Source: a virus. Taken from it: a stretch of 64,000 nucleotides of DNA. Of this stretch, positions 3,417 through 43,042 are shown piece by piece (position 1 is the first letter of the stretch; each line of letters begins with the position of its first letter). The notes beneath the pieces were generated by a model. It was not told the DNA's origin. It saw only the letters and a list, made by a program, of their open reading frames with translations, and made no database searches. A program made the translations under genes and the position numbers. The stretch is from positions 1 through 64,000 of the IMG/VR virus record IMGVR_UViG_3300036820_000011; one strand, given 5' to 3'.

Positions 3417-5357
3417 ATGGCTGTCGACAAGATCCAGGAACACCTGGAAGAGAAGATCAAAGAGGGCATCACCCCGTGGCTGCTCTGCGCCTCGGCCATG
3501 CCGGTTGCCCTGGTCACGCACACTGCCTGGGGTGGCGACCCGGCCATGAACGACATCATGGCGGCCGGGGCCACAGCACTGACCTTCAGCACCTGGGCGA
3601 CCTGGAGCCGCAGGCACGAGCACACCCGCGTCCTGGCCACGGCCATCGCCGGAGCGGTCACCGGCTGGACCGCGCTGGCCGTGGCCACCTCCCCGCTCGA
3701 CCCGGGAATGCTCAAGGCGTGGATGTTCGGCGGGACCATCCTGTCGATCATGTGGAACGCCAGGCACTTCGCGCACAAGCCCGCCCATGAGTCCGACAAG
3801 GCGTCGGGCACCCGGGACGGCCTGATGGAGAAAGTCGGCGGGGCGTTCAGCGGGGCCCGCATCCGGCGCACGAAGACCTCCCCCGGCCGCGTCGAAGCCG
3901 AGGTCGAACTGGCTCCCGGCGAGACTGAGGCCGGGGCGCAGGGCGCGCTGGGTACCCTCGCGTCGGTGGCCGGGGTCGGCACCTCCGAGGTGACGGTCAA
4001 GGGCGACCCGAAGCGGGCCCGGAAGATCCATCTCACGTTCCAGGAGATGGAGGAACTCCGGAAGACGATCCACTGGCCGGGCGTCTCCGCCCCCGGAACC
4101 TCCGTGGCGGATTCCGCCCTGCGGTTCGGTGAGCTGCGCAACGGCACGGAACTGGGCCTGTGGGTCTGCGGAAACGACGACCGTGACAACCCGCGTCCGG
4201 CCGGGCACGTGCTCAACACCGGGGTCACCCGGTCGGGCAAGACCTCGACTGCCAAGACGCTCATTGTCGAGGGCCGGTCCCGGATCGACTTCGTCCCGGT
4301 CGTCGCCGACCCGGCCAAGTTCATGCAGGGATTCGGGCGGATCGCCGACACCCTGGCCATAGCGGCGACCACAGAGGCCGAGTGCCGCCAGCTGATCCGG
4401 AACATCCCGGACGCCGTCAAGTACCGGTCCCAGCGGCTCGGTGAGCTGGGGTTCGACCAGTGGACCCCGGCGTGCTGGACCCAGTACGACATCCCGATGG
4501 TGTTCATCGACCTGGAAGAGGCCACCGACTACGCGGACGAGAGCGAACTGGACGCGGCCATCCGCAAGGCCGGGAGCGTCGGCATCCTCATCATGGTGTC
4601 GCTGCAGACTGCGATCCACACCAACATCGAGCGCAAGACGCGCGGCCAGCTCACCAACAGCCTGTGCCACGGCTGCGTCGAAGATTTCGACGCGAAGTTC
4701 GCCCTGTCCCAGGGCACGCTGGAGGCCGGGGCCGACCCGACCAAGTGGCGGAACAATTTCCCCGGCAGCCTGTACGCCGAACTGGTGGGCACCCTGCCGG
4801 AGACCTGGGCCACTGAGGCGCGGGCCTACAGCCTGACCCCGGACGAGATGCGGGCGGAACTGGACGCCAGCCGTGGCACCTGGGCGGAACTCGACCCCGG
4901 AACCGCCCTCTACCTGGAGCGCGGCATCAGCGTTCCGGACGCGAAGATCACAGCTACGCTCCCGGAAGTGGTTCCGGACGAGCCGGAAGAGGAGGCCGTC
5001 GACATGACGAAGATCAAGAACGAGCACGGGGAGGTCAACGTCTCCTTGGCGCTGACCCCGCCGACCGGCGAGCGGTTCATCCTGCGCAGCGCCGACAACC
5101 TGGTCCAGATGAAGACCGAGCAGGCCCGGCAGCTGGTCGAGGACCGCATCGACCAGCTGGAGGACAGGGGTAGCACGGAGGTGGGGTTCAAGGATCTGGA
5201 AGACCTCTCCGAGCTGACCGGCCGTCGTCCGCGCTGGATCTATGACGAACTGCACCGTCTGGTGGCCGAGGGCCGTCTGGCCGAGGGCAACGGCCGCCCG
5301 CCGTTCACCATCCGGCAGACCGTGGTACCGATCAACAGGCACCGCCGCGAAGGGTGA
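3417..5357 (+). CDS. TraB/FtsK-SpoIIIE-type DNA translocase
   Basis: A 646-residue ATPase. The N-terminus (about 20-115) has three or four membrane segments. The motor domain carries Walker A GVTRSGKT at residues 269-276 and Walker B VFIDLEE at 362-368. The last 70 residues (FKDLEDLSELTGRRPRWIYD) look like a winged helix, as in FtsK gamma or TraB, which read short DNA repeats. Streptomyces TraB proteins move double-stranded plasmid DNA between hyphae. AGAGGAGG just upstream of ATG 3417 is an excellent ribosome site. A chromosomal FtsK is unlikely given the length and plasmid-type neighbours; a phage DNA-translocation role remains possible. Confidence 0.8.
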   Translation: MAVDKIQEHLEEKIKEGITPWLLCASAMPVALVTHTAWGGDPAMNDIMAAGATALTFSTWATWSRRHEHTRVLATAIAGAVTGWTALAVATSPLDPGMLKAWMFGGTILSIMWNARHFAHKPAHESDKASGTRDGLMEKVGGAFSGARIRRTKTSPGRVEAEVELAPGETEAGAQGALGTLASVAGVGTSEVTVKGDPKRARKIHLTFQEMEELRKTIHWPGVSAPGTSVADSALRFGELRNGTELGLWVCGNDDRDNPRPAGHVLNTGVTRSGKTSTAKTLIVEGRSRIDFVPVVADPAKFMQGFGRIADTLAIAATTEAECRQLIRNIPDAVKYRSQRLGELGFDQWTPACWTQYDIPMVFIDLEEATDYADESELDAAIRKAGSVGILIMVSLQTAIHTNIERKTRGQLTNSLCHGCVEDFDAKFALSQGTLEAGADPTKWRNNFPGSLYAELVGTLPETWATEARAYSLTPDEMRAELDASRGTWAELDPGTALYLERGISVPDAKITATLPEVVPDEPEEEAVDMTKIKNEHGEVNVSLALTPPTGERFILRSADNLVQMKTEQARQLVEDRIDQLEDRGSTEVGFKDLEDLSELTGRRPRWIYDELHRLVAEGRLAEGNGRPPFTIRQTVVPINRHRREG

Positions 5358-15441: not shown

Positions 15442-16374
15442 GTGACCAACTCGGTCTGCAGTACCAGGCACGTCGTCATGTGGTCCGGCGGTATCACGTC
15501 TTGGGCCACCGCCCGCATCGTGATCGACCGACACGGCCGCGAGAACACCACGCTGCTGTTCGCTGACACCAACTATGAGGACCCGGACCTGCACCGCTGG
15601 AACGCGGATGCGGTGGTCAGCCTCGGCATGGATCTGGTGCGTGTCGCTGACGCGCAGGAGCGCAATCCGTGGGACGTGTTCCGCGACAAGAAGTACATCG
15701 GTAACACCCGCATCGCTCCCTGTTCGCACCTGCTCAAGCAGGTTCCGTGCCGCGAGTGGCTAGCCGAGAACTGCGACCCGGCAAACACCATCGTCTACGT
15801 CGGTATCGACTGGGATGAGACGCACCGGATTCCGGCGATCGCTGCAGGCTACGCGCACACCATTAAGGGCTGCGCGAGCCGCAAGCACTGTCTAGATCTC
15901 TTCGGTCCCGGGGGTCGCAGGCAGGGTCCGGGTTGCCGGAACTTGCTGCCGCTCGCCTGGACTTCGGTCGCGCCGCTGACGGAGCCGCCGTTTCAGGACA
16001 AGGACTTCTGGATTGCGGAGGCCGAGCGCGCTGGCCTCCGTCCCCCGCGTCTGTACGGCCTCGGGTTTCCGCACAACAACTGCGGCGGGGCATGCATCAA
16101 GGCAGGTCAGGCCCAGTGGAAGCGCGTCCTCGAAGTGTTCCCTGAGCGGTACGCCGATGCCGAGGCATCCGAAGAGGCGATGCGCGCGGACCTTGGCAAG
16201 GACGTGGCATTTCTGCGGGACCGACGCGGCGGGGAGACGAAGCCGTTGCCACTGAAGCTGCTCCGTACCCGGCTTGAGGCCGATGCGGAGGCCATGCCGG
16301 GCCTGTTCGACGCTGATGACTGGGGTGGCTGCGGCTGCTTCACCGAGACCGATGAGATGCCCGAAATAACATGA
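15442..16374 (+). CDS. PP-loop ATPase, PAPS reductase-like
   Basis: A 310-residue protein of the adenine-nucleotide alpha-hydrolase fold. The PP-loop SGGITS is at residues 15-20, followed by FADTNYEDPDLHRW. Downstream come VGIDWDETHR, PPRLYGLGFPHNNCGGAC and a Cys-rich end (GGCGCF), features of phage PAPS reductase/DndC-like proteins. The family activates substrates by adenylation, often for sulfur transfer. The stretch at about residues 140-165 (CASRKHCLDLFGPGGRRQGP) looks unlike the usual family sequence here. GTG 15442 follows AAGGAG. Confidence 0.8.
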   Translation: MTNSVCSTRHVVMWSGGITSWATARIVIDRHGRENTTLLFADTNYEDPDLHRWNADAVVSLGMDLVRVADAQERNPWDVFRDKKYIGNTRIAPCSHLLKQVPCREWLAENCDPANTIVYVGIDWDETHRIPAIAAGYAHTIKGCASRKHCLDLFGPGGRRQGPGCRNLLPLAWTSVAPLTEPPFQDKDFWIAEAERAGLRPPRLYGLGFPHNNCGGACIKAGQAQWKRVLEVFPERYADAEASEEAMRADLGKDVAFLRDRRGGETKPLPLKLLRTRLEADAEAMPGLFDADDWGGCGCFTETDEMPEIT

Positions 16375-19673: not shown

Positions 19674-19871
19674 ATGCCCATCCGCTACAGCCACAAGACC
19701 ACGATCATCCCTGGCCTGCTGGCCATGCACGTCAACAAGGAATCGCACAGCTGGACCTGGGGCAACGCGCTGATCGGGCACCTGACCCTCTCCAGTAACG
19801 GCACCCGGACCTACTCCCACGTCCTGCTCGGCGGGGCCAGCTACCGCAGGACGAGCCGGAGGCAGCCGTGA
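19674..19871 (+). CDS. Hypothetical small protein
   Basis: A 65-residue basic protein (MPIRYSHKTTIIPGLLAMHV) starting after the previous stop. Its stop overlaps a possible 14-codon frame that leads to the parS palindrome. Confidence 0.5.
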   Translation: MPIRYSHKTTIIPGLLAMHVNKESHSWTWGNALIGHLTLSSNGTRTYSHVLLGGASYRRTSRRQP

Positions 19872-19912
19872 GCCACTACGCATACGCCTACGCCTACGTC
19901 GAGAACTGCTGA
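19868..19912 (+). CDS. Possible 14-residue peptide
   Basis: GTG 19868 overlaps the previous TGA and encodes MSHYAYAYAYVENC before TGA at 19910. Coupling and the regular Ala-Tyr run are the only support. It ends 13 bp before the parS palindrome. Confidence 0.3.
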   Translation: MSHYAYAYAYVENC

Positions 19913-19924
19913 GCGCAGCACGGT

Positions 19925-19952
19925 GGGAGCCGTTTCACGTGAAACGGCTCCC
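19925..19952. promoter_or_regulatory. parS: parS-type centromere site in a 28-bp perfect palindrome
   Basis: The core at 19932-19945, GTTTCACGTGAAAC, is the 14-bp ParB-binding site known from Streptomyces chromosomes. It is extended to a perfect 28-bp palindrome (arms starting GGGAGCC). An outer pair, GCTGAGC (about 19909) with GCTCAGC, encloses it. No ParA or ParB gene is seen in the window, so any ParB would come from the host or from outside the window. There is no T tract, so a simple terminator is less likely. Confidence 0.85.
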
Positions 19953-19999
19953 GGCCACGGGTGCTCAGCCCGCACGACCAACGACCGAGAGGAACCGCC

Positions 20000-20239
20000 A
20001 TGTCCGACACTTACGCCATCCGCACCGATCGCCTCCGCCCGGGGGACGTCATCGTGGAGCGGGAGCACACGTTCACCCGCCGTACCGAGGTCGTCATCCT
20101 TCCGGCCCCGGTCACGATCAACTACGGCCCGCTGACCGTGGACGTCTTCGAGGTCAGCGGATTCGACAACGCCCACGGCACGGACCGCAAGGTCCGGTTC
20201 GTCGCTCCCGGGTCGCGGCTGTGGTCCGTCGCCCGGTGA
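20000..20239 (+). CDS. Hypothetical beta-rich protein
   Basis: A 79-residue protein (MSDTYAIRTDRLRPGDVIVE) that looks like a small beta barrel. ATG 20000 follows the consensus start-associated sequence GAGAGGAACCGCC directly downstream of parS. Its stop overlaps the HTH gene start. Confidence 0.65.
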   Translation: MSDTYAIRTDRLRPGDVIVEREHTFTRRTEVVILPAPVTINYGPLTVDVFEVSGFDNAHGTDRKVRFVAPGSRLWSVAR

Positions 20240-20574
20240 CCGGGCTCCCGCTGTCCGCCATGGAGCTGTTCATCCTCCAGCGCATGGCGCTGGGGGACAC
20301 CTACACCGAATCGGGCAGGCGGTGGGGGACGACCGGGAGGAGTGCGGGATTCGCCGGGTACCGGGCCATCCACAAGCTCGGTGCCCGGAACATCGTGCAC
20401 GCCGCAGTCATCGCCCTGACCACCGGTCTCATCCACCCTGAGGAGTGCGGGACGGTCCGGACCTACTACTGGCACAAGGCGCACGGCGAGAAGCCGTGCA
20501 CCGCCTGCAAGGCCGCGCGCGGGGACCACGACCGGCCACTCGCCTACTACCGCCGAAAGGACCAGCAGTCATGA
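20236..20574 (+). CDS. LuxR-like HTH plus zinc-ribbon regulator
   Basis: A 112-residue protein. Residues 5-70 (LSAMELFILQRMALGDTYTE, then RAIHKLGARNIVHAAVIAL) follow the LuxR/GerE helix-turn-helix pattern. Residues about 75-105 contain CGT...HKAHGEKPCTACKAARGDH, a zinc ribbon. GTG 20236 overlaps the previous stop. Likely a DNA-binding regulator of the small-gene region. Confidence 0.65.
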   Translation: MTGLPLSAMELFILQRMALGDTYTESGRRWGTTGRSAGFAGYRAIHKLGARNIVHAAVIALTTGLIHPEECGTVRTYYWHKAHGEKPCTACKAARGDHDRPLAYYRRKDQQS

Positions 20575-22070: not shown

Positions 22071-22523
22071 ATGACCATGGCCGCGCACGTCCCGCCCGTC
22101 CGCATCCCGGCCTGGGAGGACTCCGCGCTCTGCCGCAGAGCGACGCCGGAGCAGATCGAGGCCGATTTCTTCCCGCTCATGGAGACCGAACTCCGGGCCC
22201 AGCGCACCTACGACCGCTGGTGCGGCGAGTGCCCGGTGATACATGAATGCCTGACCAGGGCACTGCTGTGCCACTCCGAGGGCATCTATGCCGGGACGAC
22301 CACCGGCACCCGCACCAAGCTGCTGAAGCGCCGCAGCCGGGCCAGGTGCCCGGTGCCGGGATGCCACGCGGCTGTCGACATAGAGATCACTGACCCGAGG
22401 GATGGAGAGATCATGCTGTCCGAGGTATGCCGCTGCTGCGGTGCGTCCTGGAAGGCCGACGGCCCGCCCGGCTCCAAGCCGGTGGCCCTGAGACTGAGCA
22501 CATCCCCTGCGGTGGAGCCGTGA
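22071..22523 (+). CDS. WhiB-family iron-sulfur regulator with C-terminal zinc ribbon
   Basis: A 150-residue protein. Cys21, Cys51, Cys54 and Cys60 (ALC, WCGECPVIHEC) form the WhiB pattern that binds a [4Fe-4S] cluster, and GIYAGTT stands in place of the usual G[VI]WGG turn before a basic tail (KRRSRAR). The extra C-terminus has CPVPGC and CRCCGASW, a zinc ribbon not usual in WhiB. WhiB proteins partner the main sigma factor; phage forms can take over host regulation, as with mycobacteriophage TM4 WhiB. GAGGGGACC precedes ATG 22071. Confidence 0.85.
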   Translation: MTMAAHVPPVRIPAWEDSALCRRATPEQIEADFFPLMETELRAQRTYDRWCGECPVIHECLTRALLCHSEGIYAGTTTGTRTKLLKRRSRARCPVPGCHAAVDIEITDPRDGEIMLSEVCRCCGASWKADGPPGSKPVALRLSTSPAVEP

Positions 22524-27485: not shown

Positions 27486-30400
27486 TCAGACCCCCGGGAT
27501 CAGGCCACGGAGGCGGCCGTGCTGCTTGGCGTCCTGGAGCGCGGAGATCAGCCAGTTCTGCAGCTCGTGCCTGCTGCCGACCGGTCCGTGGAAGTGGGCG
27601 TGCACGTGCAGTTCCCCGCCGCCCGCCGACTGCCCGGGGCCGAGCACCCGCTCCGGCCGCCCGGTGCCGTTGTTGGCGATCGAGCGGCCGACGGGGAGGT
27701 AGCCGCCGGAGTCGTACCAGTTGTTGCTGTTCCCGGTCAGCATCGGCTGACGGTCCTGGCGCATGGTCCACGAGCCGAGTTCCGTGGTTGCGCACCACAC
27801 GGACTCGGTCCCCGCGTCCCCGGTCCGGATGCTCTCACCGCCCAGGAACGGCTTCGCCTCCCGGATGGCCACACCGGTCCGAGGAGTTGTGCAGCCCAGA
27901 TTGCTCCGGCCGCTGCGCTTCCACTCGGTCATGGCAGGGCGCTTCCCGCTGAGGTAGACCGCCAGGACGATGGCGTCCTGCTGCGCACCGTCCGCCTGCG
28001 AGTAGCTCTTCCCCCCGGAGTAGTGGCCCTTCCCCAGAATCGGCCCTTCCTGGATCTTCGTCACGCCTTCCGCCCCGAACACCCCGCGTAGGAAGGCTTC
28101 CCGCTGCGGCTCGGACAGCGATAGGACGAAGGGGACCGGATCGGCATGGTCGTACCCACTGCGCCTGAGCAGTTCCGCCGACCACGGCCGGTGAAACTCC
28201 CAGGTGGTCAACGGGAGTCCCGGCTCCCCACTGGGCTTTGTCATCGGGCGCACGGTACGGGTGAACGGGAGTCCGGACACCAGCGACTCGATCGCCTTCA
28301 CGTGTTCCGGCTTGGACTGACCGAGCCGAATGGACGGCCGGGACCCGCGAAGGGTCCGCCAGTGCGTGCTGTTCGGCGTACGACTCTTGGGCTTGATCAC
28401 CCAGCCGTCGCCCAGGACCCATCCCAGCAGCTCGGCTTCCTGCAAACTGACCGAGGCGTTTTCACCGACATCCGACGGTGCGGCGAGTCGAAGGGTGTGC
28501 CGAGTGGTGATCTTCTGTGCTTCCACGAAGACGTCATCAGTCCGGAATTCGTTCTTGGTGCGTCCGCCAACACCCTTCCGGCCGACGTGCTTGCGGTGGA
28601 CCGCCACCCATCGGTGGTGCGGAGTGCACACCGCGTGCCATGTCTTGTTGGTGAGTCGGACCACTGGGACGTCATCATACCGGTGAATGTCCGTGACCCG
28701 GGTCCACTCATTGCGTTCGGTCCCGGGGTTGTACCCGACCGTCATGTCTCCGATCTGGACGTTCTCGTAGGTCAGCCATCCGCGCTGTGTCAGAATCTCT
28801 ACACTCAACGGTACGCACATCTCGTGGGACCAGGCAGCACCCGGAGAGCCGTACCTCCCGGCGATGTAGCCCAGGCCCCAGCGGATCTGGGTCTGGTAGT
28901 TGCTGTGCCAGTCGGGTCCGGCGGATGCCATCTTGTCGGCCGGAAGCGCCTGAGGAATCCCGTAGGCCCCACTGGATGCATTGAGTGCGTTCCAGCGCCA
29001 ACCGCTTTCCTGGTTCCACAGCTTGATCAGCGGGCCCATCTGGTTGCTGCTCCAGTAGTACCGGCCGAGCAGGCTCTGGGCGTAGTTCTGCGCCGCGCCT
29101 GCCGCGACGCCGGAGAAGCCGCCGTTGTTGTTAAGTCCGGAGTTGGCCGATGCGGCTGCGGTGACCGCCGCGTAGATGCTGGCCGCGTTGCTCTGGGAGA
29201 ACGCCTGCGTCCACGCGGCGATATCCCGGGTCACCGTGTTCGAGGTCGGCTCGGTCACGTGGACGCCGACCGCGCCGCCGACGGAGAACTTGCCGATCCT
29301 CCCGGCCTTCACCATCTGGCGCAGGGTCAGCATGGCCTGCTGACCGCCGAGCGCGTTGACCTCGTCCGCCGTCCAGACGTGCTCGCCCTTCGAGAGCCAG
29401 GTTAGGTTCGAGTCGGAGGTGGCCGTGCCGATCCCGCCGACAGGCCCGCCGAACGCCAGGCCGGGCAACCCTTTCTTGTTGCCCGCCGTCGCCGCGTTGT
29501 TGAAATCGACGGAGAGGTTGACTGTCTTGTTCTGGATTCCGCCCAGCGAGGCGTTGACCGATGCCCGGAAGTTGTCGAACGCCTTCTCGGCGGACTTGAG
29601 CTTGCCGCCGACTCCGGGCACCCAGCCGAGCATGTCGGACGCACCGTGGAGTACGTCGCCGACCATGGTCATGAAGCCGTTGACGATGAACCGCAGCGCA
29701 GGCTCGATGCCGTTGGTCCACAGCCACATGAACGCTGATTCGATCGGGTGGATCACGTCGTTGAACAGGAAGTTGTATGCCCCCAGGGCAGCGCTCTGAA
29801 TGACGTGCCATGCGCTGACAAAGAAATTGACGAACGGCCCGGCAAACCAGTTACCGATATTCAGGAAGAAATTGACGAACGGCCCGGTGAACCACCGTCC
29901 AATACTCAGGAAGAACCCGACAAAGGGACCGGTGAACCAGTTACCAATACTCAGAAAGAAATTGACAAAAGGTCCCGTGAACCATCTTCCGATATTCAGA
30001 AAGAAATTGACAAAAGGTCCTGTGAACCAACGACCGATGTCCAGGAAGAACCCGACGAAGGGACCGGTGAACCAGTTCCCGATACTCAGGAAGAATCCGA
30101 CGAAGGGTCCCGTGAACCATCTTCCGATATCGATGAAGAAGTTCACGAAAGGACCGCTGAACCAGCGGCCGATATCCAGGAAGAAGTTGACGAACGGCCC
30201 CGCGAACCAGTTGCCGATGTCAATGAAGAAGTTGACGAAGGGCCCGGCGAACCATTCGCCGATGCTCTCCATGATTGACCTGAACAACTGGCTGTGGGTC
30301 CACGCATACGCGAATCCTGCCGCCAGGGCGGTAAGCCCGAGCACCACCAACATGATCGGGTTGGCGTCCATGACAAGATCCAGCGCGCCTTGGGCGATCG

Positions 30401-43015: not shown

Positions 43016-43042
43016 TTCACTTAACCGATGCGGTTAAGTGAA
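43016..43042. repeat. Perfect 12-bp inverted repeat upstream of the capsid gene
   Basis: TTCACTTAACCG (43016-43027) and its exact complement (43031-43042) flank ATG. It starts 2 bp past the stop of the small gene upstream and ends about 78 nt before the capsid start. It is much more A+T-rich than its surroundings and has no T tract in the transcribed direction. Confidence 0.8.

Follow-up and report, generated by a model that had tools for sequence, protein, structure and literature searches.

A host-type parS palindrome without a recognisable segregation ParB in the genome of a putative actinobacteriophage

Why should a phage genome carry an exact copy of a bacterial chromosomal parS and yet no canonical ParB to load there? 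The window analysed here, the first 64,000 nucleotides of an 82,852-base viral record (IMGVR_UViG_3300036820_000011), raises this question at a single palindrome, GGGAGCCGTTTCACGTGAAACGGCTCCC, which lies between two small co-directional genes (Table 1). The palindrome is perfect over exactly 28 bp, at the position given by the sequence-only reading of this DNA, and is centred on the 14-mer GTTTCACGTGAAAC. A palindromic extension of 7 bp on each side of the core has a chance of ~1.4e-4, and the inverted repeat runs on imperfectly beyond it (31-nt arms, 74%). The 14-mer is the sole match at two or fewer mismatches in the whole record, in which 5.5e-5 exact copies are expected by chance from composition; the search for further copies thus found none beyond the one site. 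Three Streptomyces genomes contain the same 14-mer in 16, 42 and 27 exact copies, and a review gives it as the parS of Mycobacterium smegmatis (PMC7022226). The earlier identification of the core with the Streptomyces chromosomal site is therefore correct, and so is the label of host-type parS. Like the chromosomal sites of the actinobacterial ParABS system (S. coelicolor ParB), the phage site is an exact 14-bp palindrome and is intergenic, and part of the chromosomal sites have the same long palindromic arms. Unlike them, it is single, adjoins neither ParA nor a canonical ParB, and does not show the clustering near a chromosomal oriC.

Table 1. Features of the parS locus (window positions)
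Feature	Position	Strand	Description
parS core GTTTCACGTGAAAC	19932-19945		Identical to actinobacterial chromosomal parS; candidate host-ParB loading site
28-bp perfect palindrome round parS	19925-19952		RNA/DNA hairpin, 12-bp stem, ACGT loop
Imperfect outer part of the inverted repeat	19908-19969		GCTGAGC ... GCTCAGC
Upstream gene 42	19674-19871	+	65 aa, without family match
Downstream gene 43	20000-20239	+	79 aa, without family match; ribosome-binding site GAGAGGAACC
112-aa gene	20236-20574	+	Weak match to phage WhiB-like/sigma-factor families

The two ends of the record repeat directly over 163 bp (1-163 versus 82690-82852, 160 identities and 3 differences), which suggests that the contig closes on itself and is very probably a nearly complete circular map of ~82.7 kb, though it is classed as linear. 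Its structural and lysis genes encode TerL, a fused portal/protease-type protein, a transglycosylase/NlpC protein and a GH25 lysin, and its replication genes encode a PrimPol-D5 primase-helicase, a family A DNA polymerase (PolA), a Sak4-like protein and an SNF2 helicase fused to a PD-(D/E)XK nuclease. A WhiB gene (22071-22523), a GC content of 68% and a TerL nearest to those of the Streptomyces phages mu1/6 (44%) and OnionKnight (43%) point to an actinobacterial host, perhaps Streptomyces. The proteins scanned, which took in part of the large genes, include no integrase, and no repressor, integrase or RepA-like initiator was recognised with confidence; the only candidates were a small Xis/HTH_17-like protein and an HTH_3 protein. 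The left arm also encodes a 646-aa protein (3417-5357, +; phrog_24831) that is weakly FtsK/SpoIIIE-like. A PAPS-reductase-like protein (15442-16374, +; phrog_424) with a partial SspD match is possibly the product of a sulfur-based DNA modification gene. At 29821-30255, 45-nt repeats (~9.6 copies) lie within a 1604-aa gene for a probable tape measure protein.

The sequence-only reading had reported no ParB in the window, which holds. Across the whole record, ParA (PF13614) has no match at E<=1, while 14/14 control genomes match, and the search for ParB turned up one ParB-fold protein of 189 aa just outside the window (65249-65818 in record coordinates, - strand). Its profile matches are to PF02195 and phrog_723. 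The match to ParB_N (PF02195) is limited to residues 20-89, and in a family scan that allowed E-values up to 10 it stands alone, without any HTH family. A 2025 survey defines canonical ParB by a positive TIGR00180 hit (PMC12704722); the phage protein reaches 29.9 bits on this model versus a cut-off of 58.45 bits. The LG(K/R)GL ParA-binding motif is missing, and a weak match to Noc (residues 27-183) is poorly aligned in its C-terminal part. A DNA-binding HTH is not recognisable in the C-terminal half, which may hold a cryptic DNA-binding domain, and the predicted structure is unusable (pLDDT 41). Judged by these profiles, the product is a ParB-fold protein and not a recognisable segregation ParB. 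Its gene belongs to a block on the - strand (63468-65818, record coordinates) together with genes for a weakly CoA-transferase-like protein and an ABC-ATPase/GNAT fusion (phrog_11143), a possible DNA modification or counter-defence cassette. The ParB-fold protein is related to the N-termini of phage DNA methyltransferases.

We found that long palindromic arms are a feature of chromosomal parS as well. We counted 77 exact parS in 389 kb drawn from three Streptomyces genomes; in 10 of them perfect palindromy continues for at least 5 bp, and for up to 15 (expected 0.2%; p ~3e-16). In a sample of bacterial loci with parS, 0.94 Mb in all and partly picked for CC..GG flanks, 47/340 parS extend by at least 5 bp versus 1/178 other palindromes of at least 14 bp; among the parS taken without the CC..GG selection, the count is 13/212. 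The phage site with its 7-bp extension fits this chromosomal class of palindrome-armed parS, a class of which we found no description in the literature searched. Palindromic arms were also considered as a phage-specific signature and rejected, since chromosomal parS often has them.

Close relatives that would place the site in an evolutionary context were not found. No homologue of the locus was detected by DNA in phage records or viral contigs, searches with four proteins (those of genes 41, 43 and 44 and the ParB-fold protein) gave none that shares the locus, and a TerL search of GTDB genomes had no match. Three TerL relatives (67% identity) have only the structural module in common with this phage and have neither its left arm nor the parS site. 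An orphan parS is not general for such phages, as none is found at one or fewer mismatches in 7/7 other Streptomyces phages checked; the phages without it include TurboVicky, Araceli, mu1/6 and OnionKnight, and the further Streptomyces phages phiC31, R4, KimJongPhill and VWB.

Across viral contigs as a whole, G/C-flanked parS is present in at least 120, versus 1 for a 14-bp palindrome with the same bases in scrambled order; the count is a lower bound, part of which host DNA contamination may feed. Among 50 parS-bearing viral contigs of at least 30 kb, none encodes a ParB over the TIGR00180 cut-off (0/50), and 40/50 have no ParB match. Pairs of parS-selected contigs with 66-87% identity have the site in common, several of the sites being inside genes. 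These pairs are not counted as proof of conservation because both members were selected for having parS. For this reason, and given the nature of the contig count, the comparative case rests on a set sampled by homology. Two of the parS-bearing contigs proved to be Arthrobacter phages of the genus Korravirus, and 21 Korravirus-type genomes were chosen by DNA homology of the region, across the range of similarity and not by parS.

Korravirus phages make up the AK cluster and are lytic (PMC11468179). One parS, site A, is exact in 20/21 of the genomes and lost in Wayne; by conservation it falls within the top 0.6% of all 14-column windows, which average 67%. A second, site B, lies in the 65 bp that separate DNA polymerase I from a PurA-like gene and is exact in 21/21, in the top 0.1% of 14-column windows among 20 aligned genomes. 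Over the surrounding 1 kb, the mean pairwise identity of these 20 is 75% and the minimum 60%; the immediate flanks of site B are conserved too (91%), and it stands out less from its surroundings than site A does. By chance, ~7e-5 exact parS are expected per Korravirus genome (the formula used for the window record, with GC assumed at ~61%). ParB_N is absent from 21/21. Korravirus resembles the present phage in its exact host-type parS, placed between genes or at a gene junction, and in having no ParB domain; it differs in having at least two sites per 43-kb genome in most members, in the short palindromic arms and in being an unrelated phage. Site B also adjoins a PurA-like gene, and if the phage DNA carries 2-aminoadenine, host ParB would need to read a modified parS.

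Taken together, a host-type parS accompanied by neither ParA nor a canonical ParB is best read, as the sequence-only reading had proposed, as recruiting the ParB of the host. With moderate confidence, we consider the palindrome an orphan parS at which host ParB is captured during infection. At parS, CTP-bound ParB is loaded as a clamp that then slides away, and one site yields many clamps (PMC12704722). By this biochemistry, the ParB of the actinobacterial host would load at the palindrome as a CTP clamp, and the clamps would slide onto flanking phage DNA and coat the region near 19.9 kb. In addition, the arms of the palindrome probably serve as a hairpin in the leader RNA. The gain to the phage is the least certain step: ParB, and SMC recruited by ParB, may be drawn onto replicating phage DNA, which could organise or place that DNA, affect neighbouring genes, or draw ParB off the host centromere. 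We make no firm choice among organisation, regulation and titration. Local regulation is plausible given the position of the sites at gene boundaries, and titration is plausible only after phage replication because a Streptomyces chromosome itself has 16-42 exact sites. The uses proposed earlier were segregation, organisation of the phage DNA and titration of ParB, and segregation now appears the least likely of them, the conserved cases being lytic (PMC11468179) and neither integrase nor ParA having been found here.

In the partition account, the phage would be a plasmid-like prophage that exploits the host ParA-ParB in the way SGI1 exploits the IncC plasmid system (PMC10954446). This precedent, the lack of a detected integrase and the fact that host ParAB together with a single parS could be enough all speak for it. 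We nevertheless regard it as quite unlikely, and use in infection as likelier, because Korravirus is lytic and conserves parS where partition is not needed, and because no plasmid-type genes were recognised with confidence among the proteins scanned, neither a repressor nor an integrase nor a RepA-like initiator, and the PolA, PrimPol-D5, SNF2 and Sak4-like replication set resembles that of lytic phages. It is very improbable that the site belongs instead to the phage's own ParB-fold protein. The profiles, including the weak Noc match, do give that protein a ParB-CTPase fold, but it falls well below the TIGR00180 cut-off with no recognisable ParB HTH in its C-terminal half, it is encoded 45 kb from the site in a block with an ABC/GNAT protein, and similar folds often accompany DNA-modification enzymes (PMC12704722).

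The palindrome could also matter only as RNA, a terminator or leader structure whose stem spells parS by chance, with no role for ParB. Its perfect 12-bp stem is the longest in the record, a rank held in common with one other site (43016-43042), the leader folds strongly as RNA (-49.6 kcal/mol, z = -3.3), and the palindrome sits 54 nt past the stop codon of gene 42 and 48 nt before the start of gene 43, as the genes were called by a simple script. In a test for intrinsic terminators the stem-loop proved G+C-rich, but no U-tract or T-run follows it and there was no terminator-like call; an Rfam search had no match. Terminators without a U-tract are reported in Streptomyces, and the missing tract is not decisive. 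Against an RNA element alone, the flanking genes are co-directional, seven specified bases of the stem would need to match, and the scrambled palindrome of equal composition is all but missing from the viral contigs in which parS abounds. We judge this account unlikely. Recent neutral capture of a hairpin-parS from the host by recombination, leaving a site functionless in the phage, fits the commonness of palindrome-armed chromosomal parS and the absence of the site from distant relatives and the seven Streptomyces phages. It is an improbable origin for this site, however: only ~62 bp resembles the structure, both neighbours are small phage-type genes, and the comparable Korravirus sites are under purifying selection.

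Capture of host ParB by an orphan parS would have its nearest parallel in SGI1, a mobile element without parAB that carries the ParB site of another replicon, and whose parS mimics hijack the IncC ParABS system, with binding, stabilisation and displacement all demonstrated (PMC10954446). The phage likewise has a site that matches the parS of another replicon and no parAB of its own; here, in contrast to SGI1, the target would be a chromosomal system and the carrier is a phage. The actinophages RedRock and Miko also have parS (PMC7157519), but these encode a ParA and a ParB of their own, and 8-bp direct repeats in an array form their parS. The present phage has one palindrome, no ParA and no canonical ParB, and tandem repeat scans showed no iterated 8-bp array of the RedRock type. 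Orphan parS of the chromosomal type in lytic phages is not described in the literature searched, which covered subscription journals little.

More tentatively, and with somewhat less than even confidence, we suggest that unrelated lytic actinophages keep orphan host centromeres so that host ParB clamps and SMC load during infection, as a general take-over of the segregation machinery by DNA mimicry of which this phage would be one instance. ParB clamps have been studied almost solely as the segregation machinery of their own replicon, and the conservation of a host centromere in lytic phages implies that a virus which will never be partitioned benefits from ParB loading or exploits it. If true, this would reveal a phage-host interface at the host centromere and make ParB titration testable in a natural setting. 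Korravirus phages and their host Arthrobacter sp. ATCC 21022 are already in culture.

Two further observations concern the hairpins. Immediately upstream of the phage palindrome, a tyrosine-rich ORF of 14 codons, VSHYAYAYAYVENC (19868-19912, +), overlaps gene 42 at its stop codon by 4 nt, and terminates just ahead of the main hairpin; it could be a leader peptide or arise by chance. On Streptomyces chromosomes and in bacterial contigs, parS is often centred in long perfect palindromes (up to 62 bp), and some of these are then followed by T-runs and resemble bidirectional terminators with parS as the hairpin tip. That chromosomal parS of Streptomyces often forms the tip of a long hairpin may connect ParB loading sites with transcript ends.
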